From Microbacter sp. GSS18 (GTDB lineage: Bacteria > Actinomycetota > Actinomycetes > Actinomycetales > Microbacteriaceae), in assembly GCA_029319145.1 (NCBI GenBank), contig CP119753.1, positions 372,001 through 436,000 on the forward strand: 64,000 bases of DNA. Direction: 5' to 3'. Positions 2,941 through 62,785 of the stretch are shown here, one piece after another (the stretch's first letter is position 1; every line of letters begins with the position of its first letter). The translations under genes were made by a program, and so were the position numbers. The notes below the pieces were generated by a model, which saw only the letters and a list, made by a program, of their open reading frames with translations, made no database searches and was not told where the DNA came from.

Positions 2941-5900
2941 ATGGGCTTCAACAACCCGGGAGTGCCGTGGTCCGAGATGGAGCGGATCCTCAGCGACCGC
3001 CGACGACCGGGAGGGCCGCCCGCCGGCGCCGACGGCGGCGACAGCCCGGCGTGGTCGCACAAGCGCGGTCCGTACGTTCCGCCGCCGATCGAGCGTCCCG
3101 CCGACACCGTGCCCTACGCCGAGCTGCACGCGCATTCGTCGTTCTCGTTCCTCGACGGCGCCTCCTCTCCCGAGGAGCTCGCCGAAGAGGCCGAGCGACT
3201 GGGCCTGCACGCCCTCGCGATCACCGACCACGACGGGTTCTACGGCATCGTGCGCTTCGCCGAGGCCGCAGAGTCGCTGGCCCTCAAGACCGTGTTCGGA
3301 GCCGAGCTGTCGCTCGAGCTGCCCGCACCGCAGAACGGCGAGGCCGACCCGGTCGGCGCCCACCTGCTCGTGCTCGCCCGCGGCGAAGAGGGCTACCACC
3401 GGCTGGCCTCGGCCCTCACGCATGCGCAGCTGGCCGGGCGCGAGAAGGGCAGGCCCGTCTACGACCTCGACGAGCTCGCCGCGCAGGGGCGCGATCACTG
3501 GGTGGTGCCGACCGGATGCCGCAAGGGCGCCGTACGGCGCGCGCTCGCCGCCGAGGGGGCGGGCGCCGCCGCGCGCGAGCTCGACCGCCTCGTCGCGCTG
3601 TTCGGTCGTGATGCCGTCCACGTCGAGCTCATCGACCACGGCGATCCGCTCGACACGCGCCACAACGACATGCTCGCGGGCCTCGCGCGCGATCGGGGCC
3701 TGCCGCTCGTGGCGACCAACAACGTCCACTACGCCGTGCCCGAGCGGCAGCTGCTGGCCGCCGCCGTCGCCGCCGTGCGGGCGAACCGCGGCATGGACGA
3801 GCTCGACGGGTGGCTGCCCGCGCATGCCGGCGCCCACCTGCGCTCGGGCGCCGAGATGGCCGAGCGGTTCGCGCGGCATCCGGATGCCGTTGCGCGCACG
3901 GTGACCCTCGCCGACGAGCTCGCCTTTCCGCTGCGCCGCGCCAAGCCCGCGCTGCCGAAGCAGGAGGTGCCCGATGGCCACACGCCCATGTCGTGGCTGC
4001 GGCACCTGGTGTGGGAGGCGGTGCCCCGCAAGTACCCGGACCTCACGCCCGCGAATCGCGCGCGCATCGAGAAGGAACTCGGGGTCATCGAGCTGAAGGA
4101 CTTCCCGGGCTACTTCCTCATCGTCCACGGCATCGTGCAGGAGGCGCGCCGGCGCGGCATCCTGTGCCAGGGGCGCGGGTCGGCCGCGAACAGCGCCATC
4201 TGCTATCTGCTCGACATCACCGCCGTCGACGCGATCGCGTACGATCTGCCGTTCGAGCGGTTCCTGTCGAGCCTGCGAGACGAGGAGCCCGACATCGACG
4301 TCGACTTCGACTCCGACCGCCGCGAGGAGATCATCCAGTGGGTCTACGCCACGTACGGGCGCGAGCGGGCGGCGCAGGTCGCGAACGTCATCCAGTACCG
4401 GCCGAAGAACGCCATCCGCGACATGGCGAAGGCCCTCGGGCACTCGCCGGGGCAGCAGGACGCGTGGTCTAAGCAGGTCGAGGGGTGGGGTGCGAAGCTC
4501 GAGACCCCGGGGGAGCACGACATTCCGGACCGCGTGCTGCAGTACGCCACCGAGCTGCTGAAGGCGCCGCGGCACCTCGGCATCCACTCCGGCGGCATGG
4601 TGCTCACCGACCGGCCGGTGGGCGAGGTCGTGCCCATCGAGCACGCGCGCATGGAGGATCGCACCGTCATCCAGTGGGACAAGGACGACGCGGCGTGGAT
4701 GGGCCTGGTGAAGTTCGACCTGCTGGGCCTCGGGATGCTGGCGGCGCTGCAGTACTGCTTCGACATGATCCGCGCCTCGACGGGCGAGGACTGGGAGCTG
4801 TCGACGCTGCCGAAGGAGGAGCAGGCCGTCTACGACATGCTCTGCCGGGCCGATTCCATCGGGGTGTTCCAGGTCGAGTCGCGCGCGCAGATGGGGCTGC
4901 TGCCGAGGCTGCAGCCGCGACGGTTCTACGACCTCGTGATCGAGATCGCCCTCATCCGGCCAGGACCCATCCAGGGCGGTGCGGTGCATCCGTTCGTCCG
5001 CCGCAAGCTCGGACTCGAGAAGGTGACCTATGCGCATCCCAAGCTGAAGCCGGTCCTCGAGCGCACGCTCGGCATCCCGGTCTTCCAGGAGCAGCTCATG
5101 CAGATGGCGATGGCCGTGGGGGAGTGCACGGGCGAGGACGCCGACCTGCTGCGCCGCGCCATGGGGTCCAAGCGGGGTGTCGAGCGCATCGAGTCGCTCA
5201 AGGCGAAGCTGTACGAGGGGATGGCCTCGAACGGCCTCGTGGGCGAGGAGGCGGATGCCATCTACGCCAAGATCCAGGCGTTCGCGAACTTCGGGTTCGC
5301 CGAGTCCCACTCGCTGTCGTTCGCGCTGCTGGTGTACGCCTCGTCGTGGATCAAGCTGCACTATCCCGCCGCGTTCCTCGCGGGGCTTCTGCGCGCGCAG
5401 CCCATGGGCTTCTACTCGCCCGCGACCCTCGTCGGCGATGCGCGCCGGCACGGCGTCGAGGTGCGCCGCCCGGATCTGCACGCGTCGGGAGTGGAGGCGG
5501 TGCTCGAGCCGGTTTCTCCTGTTCTCGCGTCGGACGCCGGCGTCGATCCCACGGGCATGGAAGCCTGCGCCCATCGCGTCCAGCCGCCGGTGGGGCCCTT
5601 CGACGTGAACGCGCCGGACGAGTCCGCCGCGCACCGCCGGGACGGACGGTTCGCGGTGCGGCTGGGGCTCGCGGGGGTCAAGGGCGTCGGGAAGGTGGCG
5701 GCCCAGCGCATCGTCGCCGCGCGCGAGGCGGACGGGGAGTTCCGCGACCTGCGAGACCTCGTCCGCCGCACGAGCGTCACGGCCGCCCAGGTCGAGGCGC
5801 TCGCCACGGCGGGGGCGTTCGAGTGCCTGGGCATCACGCGGCGCGAGGGCATCTGGCTCGCGGGGGCCGCGGCGCAGGACCGGCCGGAGTTCCTGCCCGA

Positions 5901-60751: not shown

Positions 60752-61933
60752 TCAGTTCAGCCGGCCCTCGGGGCGGAAGTCCGGGTCGCTCGAGACGACC
60801 AATGCGTCCAGCCGCGCATCGACCTCGCGGGCGGTGAGGACGAGCACGTGCGGTCCGGCATCGAGCTCTGCCTCGAAGGGGTCGCAGTTGTGGTGCGCGA
60901 AGTCCCCGTCGCACCGCAGGCTGATCAGCTCCCACGTCCAGTCGAGATAGACCGTCGACTCGCCTTCGTGGAAGTCCCAGATGTCGGGTGCCGAGGAGTC
61001 GAGAGACAGGATGTAGGTGTCGTTCAGGTCTGTCCGTGCCGGGTCCTCCGACTCCGGCTGGCTGACGCGCGCCCAGATGCGGTACGTGCCGGCGGTGGCG
61101 ACATCGAACTCGTACCGGGCCGTGCCGCTCTCGGACTCCGCCGCCGAGATGTAGGCCCCGCCCGACGCCTGCGGGTCGGAGTGGGCGGCGATCGTGGCGA
61201 CGAGCCGGCCGTCCTCGGCCTCGATCTCGACGGTGTCGAAGAGCGTGGTCGGCGTGGGCGTCGGGGTCGGCGTCGCCGCGGTCGGGGTGGGTGTCCCGGC
61301 GGACGACACGTCCGCGAGGGGCGCGTCCGCCGTGCCCGGCAGCAGCGAGAGCACGACCGCGACCCCGCCTGCGACGAGAGCGACGGCGCCCACCGCGATG
61401 ACCGCCGGCAGCCAGCGCCGCCTCGCGCCTTCGGCTCCCGCACCCGCCAGCGCGTAACCGCGCTTGCGCGTCGGCAGCAGCGGCTCGATCGCCGCCGCGA
61501 GCACGCCGACGTCGTACTTGAAGCGCGACGACGTCACCTCGAGGCCCTGTCTCGTGGCCAGGCCCCCGAGCGACTCGGGCAGATCCGCGCGGGCCGGCAT
61601 GCGCGCGCCGTCCACGAGCACGGGGAGCACCTTGACGTCGCGCTTCAGTGCGCTCTCGACCTCGAGCCGGACGAAGTCGTCGGGATCGTCCAGCCGCCGC
61701 GCGCCGTCGGCGTCGACGACGTCGGTCCAGTGCGGATCGATCACCACCACCACGGCGCGGCAGTCGCGCAGCGTCTCGTCCAGCACCTGCTCGAAGTCGG
61801 CGCCCGGCTCGATGCCGTCGACGTCCATGAAGACCGCGTCCTCGCCGAAGCGGGCGGTGAGGGCGTCGTAGATGCGCCCGGCGGCGCCGGAGGCGTTGCT
61901 GCGCCGGTAGCTCACGAAGACGGAGTACGTCAC
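60752..61933 (-). CDS. TIR domain-transmembrane-carbohydrate-binding-like fusion protein
   Basis: A 393-residue protein in three parts. Residues 1-150 are a TIR_2-type domain: VFVSYRRSN, DAVFMDVDGIEPGADF, VVVVIDPHWTDV, FVRLEVESAL (E91/E93 near the expected catalytic Glu) and VKVLPVLVDGARMP. After RRRW at 172-175 comes one span (about 176-197), then a Thr-Pro repeat linker (214-230). Residues 232-393 form a beta-rich CBM6/malectin-like domain (TVEIEAEDGRL, GTYRIWARVS, DAGPHVLVLTARE). Positive-inside rule puts TIR in the cytoplasm. GTG start after GGAGG. Confidence 0.85.
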   Translation of the reverse strand: MTYSVFVSYRRSNASGAAGRIYDALTARFGEDAVFMDVDGIEPGADFEQVLDETLRDCRAVVVVIDPHWTDVVDADGARRLDDPDDFVRLEVESALKRDVKVLPVLVDGARMPARADLPESLGGLATRQGLEVTSSRFKYDVGVLAAAIEPLLPTRKRGYALAGAGAEGARRRWLPAVIAVGAVALVAGGVAVVLSLLPGTADAPLADVSSAGTPTPTAATPTPTPTPTTLFDTVEIEAEDGRLVATIAAHSDPQASGGAYISAAESESGTARYEFDVATAGTYRIWARVSQPESEDPARTDLNDTYILSLDSSAPDIWDFHEGESTVYLDWTWELISLRCDGDFAHHNCDPFEAELDAGPHVLVLTAREVDARLDALVVSSDPDFRPEGRLN

Positions 61934-62039
61934 CGGTCGCCTCCGTCCTGAGTCGTCGGCGAGCCGCCCGTGTCGCCGCGCTGGCCCGATCGTGTCACGC
62001 GCGGGCGGTCATCTCAACCGTCACGGCGCATGAGGCCCG

Positions 62040-62339
62040 TCAGCGGGCGAGAGCATCCCAGTCCACGTCGACGATCGACGGGCGGGAAGCCGAGATCTGC
62101 GCGGGCAGCCGCATCCCCGGACGCGGCCAATGCTTCGGCCGCGTCACGACGCTCGTGGCGATCGTGGTGGGCGGGACGCCGGGCGCCTCGGCGACGAGTT
62201 CGAGACGGCACTCCTGGTAGCGGCCCCGCGGCGCCGGCTCCGAAACCGACACCACGAGGACGGTGCCGGCGACCGCATCCGCGAGGGGATCGGCGGTCAG
62301 CCGCTGCAGGGCGCGTGCGATGTCGTCTGCTCCGTCCAC
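62040..62339 (-). CDS. Small uncharacterised protein
   Basis: A 99-residue protein predicted as beta-rich: LADAVAGTVLVVSVSEPAPRG, YQECRLELVAEAPGVPPTTI and RPKHWPRPGMRLPAQISASR (RPKHWPRPGM-type segments are common in short Microbacterium proteins). No domain recognised. The GTG at 62339 is seven bases after TAGCGT; GTG 62348 is an alternative. Confidence 0.65.
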   Translation of the reverse strand: MDGADDIARALQRLTADPLADAVAGTVLVVSVSEPAPRGRYQECRLELVAEAPGVPPTTIATSVVTRPKHWPRPGMRLPAQISASRPSIVDVDWDALAR

Positions 62340-62346
62340 ATCCTCC

Positions 62347-62352
62347 ACGCTA
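62347..62352 (-). promoter_or_regulatory. -10 element of leaderless small gene
   Basis: Minus-strand TAGCGT, seven bases, then GTG at 62339. Confidence 0.5.
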
Positions 62353-62401
62353 TCGGTGCGCGACGGCCCCGCGTGCTCCCGGACGTGGTTTGCTGGGGCG
62401 C

Positions 62402-62785
62402 ATGAGGAATGTCGCACGATGGGTGCTCGGTCTCGCGATGGTCTTCGCCGGCGTCAGCCATCTGTTCTGGGCCCGGCGCGAATTCCAGGCGCAGGTCCCG
62501 GACTGGGCGGCCGAGAAGACCGGACTCGGAAAGGACGCGGTGGTCGTCGCCTCGGGCGTGGTCGAGGTGATGCTCGGCGGCGCCCTCGTGGCGCTTCCCG
62601 CGTCGCGCAGCCGCGTCGGGGCGATCCTGGCCGCGTTCTTCATCGCCGTCTTCCCCGGCAACATCGAGCAGTACACCCAGCGCCGCGACGGGTTCGGGCT
62701 CGACACCGACCGCAAGCGCCTCGTCCGCCTGTTCTTCCAGCCCGTGCTCGTGGCGTGGGCGTGGTGGTCCACGCGCACGCGCTGA
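62402..62785 (+). CDS. DoxX-like membrane protein
   Basis: A 127-residue protein with four predicted spans (VARWVLGLAMVFAGVSHLFW; VVVASGVVEVMLGGALVAL; VGAILAAFFIAVFPGNIEQ; LVRLFFQPVLVAWAWW). GVSHLFW and FPGNIEQY are typical of DoxX-like proteins of unknown role. Divergent from the small gene at 62339. A TTTGCT box lies seven bases before the ATG. Confidence 0.85.
   Translation: MRNVARWVLGLAMVFAGVSHLFWARREFQAQVPDWAAEKTGLGKDAVVVASGVVEVMLGGALVALPASRSRVGAILAAFFIAVFPGNIEQYTQRRDGFGLDTDRKRLVRLFFQPVLVAWAWWSTRTR

Follow-up and report, generated by a model that had tools for sequence, protein, structure and literature searches.

The locus described here raises the question of how a bacterial TIR domain might be used when it is joined, through a single membrane span, to a domain that would lie outside the cell. 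TIR enzymes act in Thoeris and related defence, and the known bacterial ones are mostly soluble and sense intracellular events. The gene lies on the minus strand of the window (the whole 64,000-nucleotide stretch of DNA analysed) at 60752..61933, stop codon included, as an ORF of 393 aa; the initial annotation had given exactly these coordinates, and they are correct. Translation starts with GTG, and a ribosome-binding-site-like GGAGG motif, read from the sequence, is located 6 bases 5′ of it (61940..61944, minus strand). From the N- to the C-terminus, the protein consists of a TIR domain, an Arg-rich flank, one membrane span, a Thr-Pro stalk and an outer domain of 162 aa. An orthologue that is 78% identical over residues 1–393 was found at the same position in one (G289) of the 294 other genomes sampled from the genus, and the dN/dS ratio between the two genes is 0.26; the gene is therefore beyond chance, and the combination of TIR domain, span and outer domain is confirmed as real.

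We analysed the TIR domain (residues 1–155; 61469..61933, minus strand), which is defined by both sequence and fold matches. The Pfam TIR_2 profile matched residues 5–113 with 45.9 bits (E 9.8e-12) and passed the cut-off of 28. When the PDB was searched by sequence with E up to 1, solely seven SARM1 sequences and Caenorhabditis elegans TIR-1 were detected, the closest chains being SARM1 (E 3e-7). Likewise, the best 32 matches in the fold search with the full-length model were all SARM1 and TIR-1, and the SARM1 TIR domain was matched with TM 0.75–0.86, as normalized to isolated SARM1 TIR chains. In the alignment with SARM1, Glu91 (61661..61663, minus strand) corresponds to the Glu of the DWVHKE motif, the Trp of which is replaced by Phe87 in the window protein; the available text of a survey of TIR domains describes the Glu at this position as catalytic (PMC7075850). 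Of the 155 TIR relatives that passed the search, 120 were listed, the window protein included, and all 120 carry Glu at the E91 position. Across 78 aligned proteins, Y9, R10, D37, G44, W69, D86, E91, P104, P113 and P119 are invariant, among which Arg10 (61904..61906, minus strand) belongs to a SYRR motif that is also present in SARM1. The initial annotation had named E91 and E93 for mutation; the former is the right residue, while the latter falls outside the nearly invariant positions. With a catalytic-type Glu present at the SARM1 position and a SARM1-like predicted fold, the TIR domain of the window protein likely cleaves NAD+.

The same survey cautions that the presence of this Glu is an imperfect guide to activity, some TIR groups carrying it often although their enzyme activity does not correspond (PMC7075850). 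Together with the lack of an obvious effector gene adjoining the window gene, this allows for a TIR domain that serves as a non-catalytic scaffold or adaptor, in which case the protein would tether other TIR or partner proteins to the membrane close to the wall and turn over no NAD+. We consider this role unlikely, given that both the Glu and the Arg of SYRR are invariant across distant relatives, that the nearest solved structure is the NADase SARM1, and that some kin are encoded beside a predicted nucleotide-responsive effector. We thus favour a catalytic TIR domain. The resemblance to SARM1 covers sequence, fold, the SYRR motif and the Glu of DWVHKE; the difference lies in the architecture, as SARM1 is described with SAM and ARM repeats and a C-terminal TIR domain (PMC7075850, in the text available), whereas the TIR domain of the window protein is N-terminal and is followed by the span and the outer domain. 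On the origin of SARM1, the available text of the survey reports that bacterial homologues were not found (PMC7075850), and that of a 2026 preprint places SARM1 robustly within a bacterial TIR lineage (PMC13142454).

Next to the TIR domain, the window protein contains one hydrophobic segment, which is the predicted single span (residues 177–195; 61349..61405, minus strand; mean hydropathy 2.69). Within 20 residues on each side, the net charge is +4 on the TIR side versus −2 on the far side; the positive flank, as identified by charge count on the cytoplasmic side of the span, includes Arg171–173 (61415..61423, minus strand). By the same simple hydropathy rule, exactly one span after the TIR domain was counted in 76 of the 120 listed relatives, two or more spans in 22, none in 19 and spans only before the TIR domain in three. 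We combined the 76 single-span relatives with two further proteins, P0005 and P0058, into a set of 78. In this set, the TIR side of the span is the more positive one in 73 proteins, equal in four and less positive in one, and at least 100 aa follow the span in 74. The number of Cys residues beyond the span is even in 59 of the 78, odd in eight and zero in 11. In the window protein, Cys341 (60911..60913, minus strand) and Cys350 (60884..60886, minus strand) are paired by conservation, as both are retained in the outer domains of G289, P0003, P0122, P0123 and P0124, and they likely form a disulfide. The charge pattern, the Cys counts and the conserved Cys pair thus place the TIR domain inside and the C-terminal domain outside, a receptor layout that is well supported at the sequence level. 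The initial annotation had proposed this layout, with the TIR domain inside, and had named the opposite orientation as evidence against it; the proposal is supported by the charge, the outer-domain Cys pair and the conservation of both domains, and the charge pattern contradicts a TIR domain outside. With an N-terminal TIR domain of this type, one span, the inside charge and an outer part of at least 100 aa, the window protein has the features by which we define the class of membrane TIR proteins described below.

In its single span, cytoplasmic TIR domain and ligand-type outer domain, the predicted architecture resembles that of the Toll-like and IL-1 receptors. The order is the opposite: the window protein would be oriented with the N-terminus in and the C-terminus out, with the TIR domain first and without LRR or Ig domains, whereas a Toll-like receptor has an N-terminal LRR outer domain and a C-terminal TIR domain. 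We found no evidence for common descent of this layout with that of the Toll-like and IL-1 receptors.

The part beyond the span contains the Thr-Pro stalk (residues 209–231; 61241..61309, minus strand), which is rich in Thr, Pro and Ala, and the outer domain (residues 232–393; 60755..61240, minus strand). The outer domain is a putative beta-sandwich like those of CBM35, CBM6 and GH115 C-terminal domains, as suggested by a weak profile score and a low-confidence model. The score against the Pfam CBM_35 profile was 17.1 bits, below the cut-off of 28, and the AlphaFold model of the domain has a low mean pLDDT of 57; when this low-confidence model was compared by Foldseek and VIA-align, CBM35, CBM6 and GH115 C-terminal domains were the top matches. 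The domain thus differs from these families in its score below the Pfam cut-off and in its linkage to a TIR domain and a span. The initial annotation had described it as CBM6/malectin-like, which comes close: CBM6 heads the fold lists with CBM35 and the GH115 C-terminal domain, while malectin ranks lower in the Foldseek list. The best match of the outer-domain profile against PDB sequences had an E-value of 0.039. A glycan or envelope component as ligand is a guess led by the modelled fold. The initial annotation had suggested glycans, cell-wall damage or phage as putative stimuli.

The TIR domain and the same outer domain also occur together in G289, P0003, P0124 and the truncated P0123; the fusion, the loss of which had been named beforehand as a refutation, is therefore conserved, and it is rare. 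One further protein, P0122, has the same outer domain and N-terminal hydrophobic stretches without a TIR domain; it lies on a short contig and might be incomplete, or it might act as a decoy or co-receptor. The searches for this outer domain are insensitive, because a search seeded with P0124 returned P0124 and P0123 alone and missed the window protein. Since similar TIR domains are found joined to different outer domains, the outer part might be conceived as a mere anchor or spacer without sensing. This is improbable in view of the sequence conservation: 53 columns are invariant across five outer-domain sequences, and between the window gene and G289 the dN/dS ratio is 0.25 for the outer domain and 0.17 for the TIR domain, compared with 0.51 for residues 156–231, the fastest-evolving stretch, in which the stalk lies. 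These values indicate that the TIR and outer domains are both retained under purifying selection, while the linker drifts. We therefore prefer to regard the outer domain as a sensor.

The distribution of the gene is patchy. In the genus, some match at E 0.001 was obtained in 77 of 295 genomes, but a whole-protein match in only two, namely, the window's own genome and G289. The remaining listed matches are short and nearly all fall within the span and the Pro-rich part; weak matches in G109 and G138 touch the TIR domain. A strong match was found only in the window's own genome among the 347 genomes of the order sample, matches in plasmids were detected in five records and cover the TIR part only, and no match was detected among 50,697 phage records. 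The gene order nrdE–nrdF–TIR gene–62040 gene–rsmC-like gene is identical in the window and in G289, the nrd names being assigned by eye and the rsmC-like label resting on a Pfam MTS match. We compared the site with 28 other genomes of the genus, using approximately 1.5 kb of flank each. As counted by eye, 27 bp separate the converging nrdF and rsmC-like genes of G010, compared with 2,270 bp in the window; the evidence for an empty site comes from this one genome, because the rsmC-like gene was within the flank only in G010 of the 28. Acquisition as indicated by odd composition is without support, as the GC content (0.72) and GC3 (0.94) of the gene fit the window and the neighbours. The small gene at 62040–62417 (minus strand), for which no Pfam family was detected, adjoins the TIR gene in G289 also, and it occurs twice in G047. 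Its relatives are present in 25 of 149 genomes of the genus, including the window's own, two of them at weak E-values near 1e-3; with this far wider spread than that of the TIR gene (2 of 295), it is unlikely to be a dedicated partner. Of the five longer frames scanned in the flank beyond the window, one encodes an ATP-dependent DNA ligase; the other four matched no Pfam family and are possibly not genuine.

Such a patchy occurrence (2 of 295 genomes), at a site where two genes stand 27 bp apart in G010, looks like that of accessory cargo, as would be expected of an abortive-infection receptor that responds, from outside the cell, to adsorbing phages or to the glycan damage caused by their enzymes and kills or stops the cell through its TIR domain. 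TIR enzymes are reported in Thoeris and related defence, and TIR–SLATT neighbourhoods in phages, in the available text of PMC9503650. The TIR core of the window protein also resembles those of Thoeris proteins, matching ThcB4 with 49 bits and ThsB1 with 39.5 bits (PADLOC, residues 4–69, no cut-off listed); it differs from Thoeris in its membrane-receptor form, and membership in Thoeris type III was rejected, the ThcB4 score of 49 bits being far under the cut-off of 220. No ThsA-type SLOG (STALD) effector was matched in the window's genome, nor in the control genomes. The phage records returned no match, as noted above, and the adjoining genes, read by eye, are housekeeping genes, which also speaks against this role. 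We regard an anti-phage receptor as rather unlikely, and a role in defence is one option among several.

Alternatively, the protein might monitor the envelope or glycans as part of normal physiology and respond to wall stress, biofilm polysaccharide or plant glycan by a mild NAD-derived signal and not by death. The strongly patchy gene content weighs against this, and the adjoining genes, as read by eye, give no hint of such a pathway. The CBM35-like fold would suit wall or plant glycans, and PASTA, solute-binding and CHASE2 modules are found among the outer domains of the relatives. These modules sense wall fragments and small molecules elsewhere. We hold such a physiological role to be possible but doubtful.

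The relatives of the TIR domain show a wide variety of outer parts, including PASTA, solute-binding, trypsin-PDZ, Kelch, GDPD and CHASE2 domains; solute-binding domains occur, for instance, in P0025 and P0045. Among the 25 of 88 Pfam families listed for the 78 relatives, GDPD was found in at least eight proteins, TPR in at least four, PASTA, Kelch and trypsin in at least two each and WD40 in at least one, and TIR_2 was the sole precomputed Pfam annotation in 53 of the 78; these architecture tallies are biased, because the selection of the relatives required a similar TIR domain and a length between 0.55 and 1.75 times that of the query. A malectin-like reading of P0007, made by eye, had neither Pfam nor PDB support and was set aside, and so was a LamG-like reading of P0063 and its kin, for which PF06439 was sub-threshold in five of the 10 proteins scanned and P0063 had no PDB support. 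The TIR tree joins the window protein to P0003, G289 and two Kelch proteins in one strongly supported group (97/92), and P0124, with the same outer domain and a TIR domain 40% identical, is placed elsewhere. A single CBM-type clade (p-AU 0.0501) and a single Kelch clade (p 0.296) were both compatible with the tree tests, neither being formally rejected, and the inference of an outer-domain swap from the tree was dropped. Within the window's family, TIR_2 was above the cut-off in 57 of 299 genomes. Among the 14 plus-strand TIR_2 genes of the family that we examined besides L005, only L039 passed the span rule, and did so marginally (score 1.67); the layout is therefore uncommon in the family. 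A gene of G1275 (L125 8917–10551) encodes a CHASE2 sensor with a C-terminal TIR domain. It resembles CHASE2 cyclases, with the TIR domain as output.

The initial annotation knew of no described system of this form. In the part of the literature that was searched, we likewise found no bacterial TIR receptor described that has a single span and an outer sensor; as many TIR–span–variable-domain proteins exist, the window protein is less singular than had been held. Taken alone, the window gene is a rare member; its wider value is that it points to a broader group of membrane TIR proteins, some of which may have pore partners. Systems with a similar logic are described in the available text of PMC8195603 (EACC2) and PMC7159879 (GAP1-N2 with SLATT), in which a constant part is combined with varying, sometimes extracellular, sensors, and CHASE2 and SLATT recur both there and among the TIR kin; they differ in that their constant part is not a TIR domain.

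The candidate pore partners were identified in a phylum sample, in which this TIR type was detected at E 1e-15 in eight of 396 genomes (the window's own and seven others, with nine places in the seven). In four of the seven (G920, G1085, G1163 and G1279), a DUF4231/SLATT gene adjoins the TIR gene, and the DUF4231 match beside the TIR gene is the single one in each of these genomes. SLATT is a predicted nucleotide-responsive pore according to the available text of PMC7159879, and some TIR kin stand beside DUF4231/SLATT in the same manner as the TIR–SLATT neighbourhoods described in phages (PMC9503650). DUF4231 was above the cut-off in 14 of the 396 genomes, including five of the eight TIR genomes (hypergeometric p 1.3e-6), the two surveys being taken as the same draw because their tallies of complete genomes and genera are equal. 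In the fifth genome, G1012, DUF4231 and TIR lie on separate contigs. In the reverse check of nine more DUF4231 loci (G957 left out), G1133 gave a weak TIR match and eight gave none, so that a TIR-like frame stands beside DUF4231 in five of the 13 loci examined. The DUF4231 gene of G1133 (L138, about 4927–5665) has its weak TIR match (E 2e-5) about 170 bp away. In the loci L121 (8388–10144) and L124 (8621–10830), the DUF4231/SLATT gene overlaps the start of a multi-span TIR gene, and each may represent a two-gene TIR–SLATT operon. The overlap is ATGA in G1279, and TTGA in G1163 if the TTG start is right; the TIR proteins of both genomes have several spans in the C-terminal half instead of one outer domain. 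In G920, LSDAT and DUF4231 are combined in one protein, which is encoded (L128 478–5410, G920:C126) beside two divergent TIR–span receptors, one with PASTA repeats and the other with PASTA and SBP_bac_3. This locus looks like a sensor–signal–pore cassette.

DUF4231 gave no match in the window's own genome (G000) in repeated searches, two of them with positive controls; in one of these two, G289 was likewise negative, while eight of the 20 genomes were positive. None was found near three loci of another collection (L002–L004). A SLATT output can thus not be claimed for the window protein, and in its host the loss of NAD+ would itself be the output, unless a signal is sent to a target encoded elsewhere.

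Based on the domains, the conserved Glu, the charge topology, the selection on both domains, the variety of outer domains and the presence of SLATT beside some kin, we propose that the window protein is a one-component membrane receptor, in which a glycan or an envelope component is recognized by the outer domain and NAD+ is cleaved by the TIR domains once these are clustered. We give this scheme somewhat better than an even chance, NAD+ cleavage, ligand, clustering and biological role being its predicted parts. The SARM1-like TIR domain would reside in the cytoplasm, and the span and the flexible Thr-Pro stalk would reach through the membrane into the wall, where the CBM35/CBM6-like domain may bind carbohydrate or another envelope ligand. 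Ligand binding, or the loss of normal contact with the wall, would cluster or reorient the receptors, and the TIR domains thus brought together would split NAD+, yielding ADP-ribose or one of its cyclic forms. For some of the kin, it is conceivable that this product opens the SLATT/DUF4231 pore encoded next to the TIR gene.

In a broader and more tentative view, which we hold as a possibility short of an even chance, these proteins would form a large undescribed bacterial class of one-component TIR receptors. In this class, a SARM1-like NADase would be used as an interchangeable output in the same way as kinases and cyclases; CBM-like, PASTA, solute-binding, Kelch and CHASE2 sensors would be freely exchanged, and the product would open a co-encoded SLATT pore in part of the members. 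The window protein would be the glycan-sensing version, and the class would be kin of the stock from which the SARM1 TIR domain came. If true, bacteria could pass the binding of an outside ligand on to NAD+ signalling in a Toll-like manner, roles would be suggested for many unassigned TIR_2 genes, and a model would be at hand for the control of SARM1-type TIR domains before their uptake by animals. The linkage of TIR and SLATT genes in the kin represents a readily testable signal-and-pore pair. The window's genome encodes a second TIR protein (L043, G000:C1:697644–697967), in which the TIR domain is followed by a long Pro-rich stretch and two C-terminal spans.
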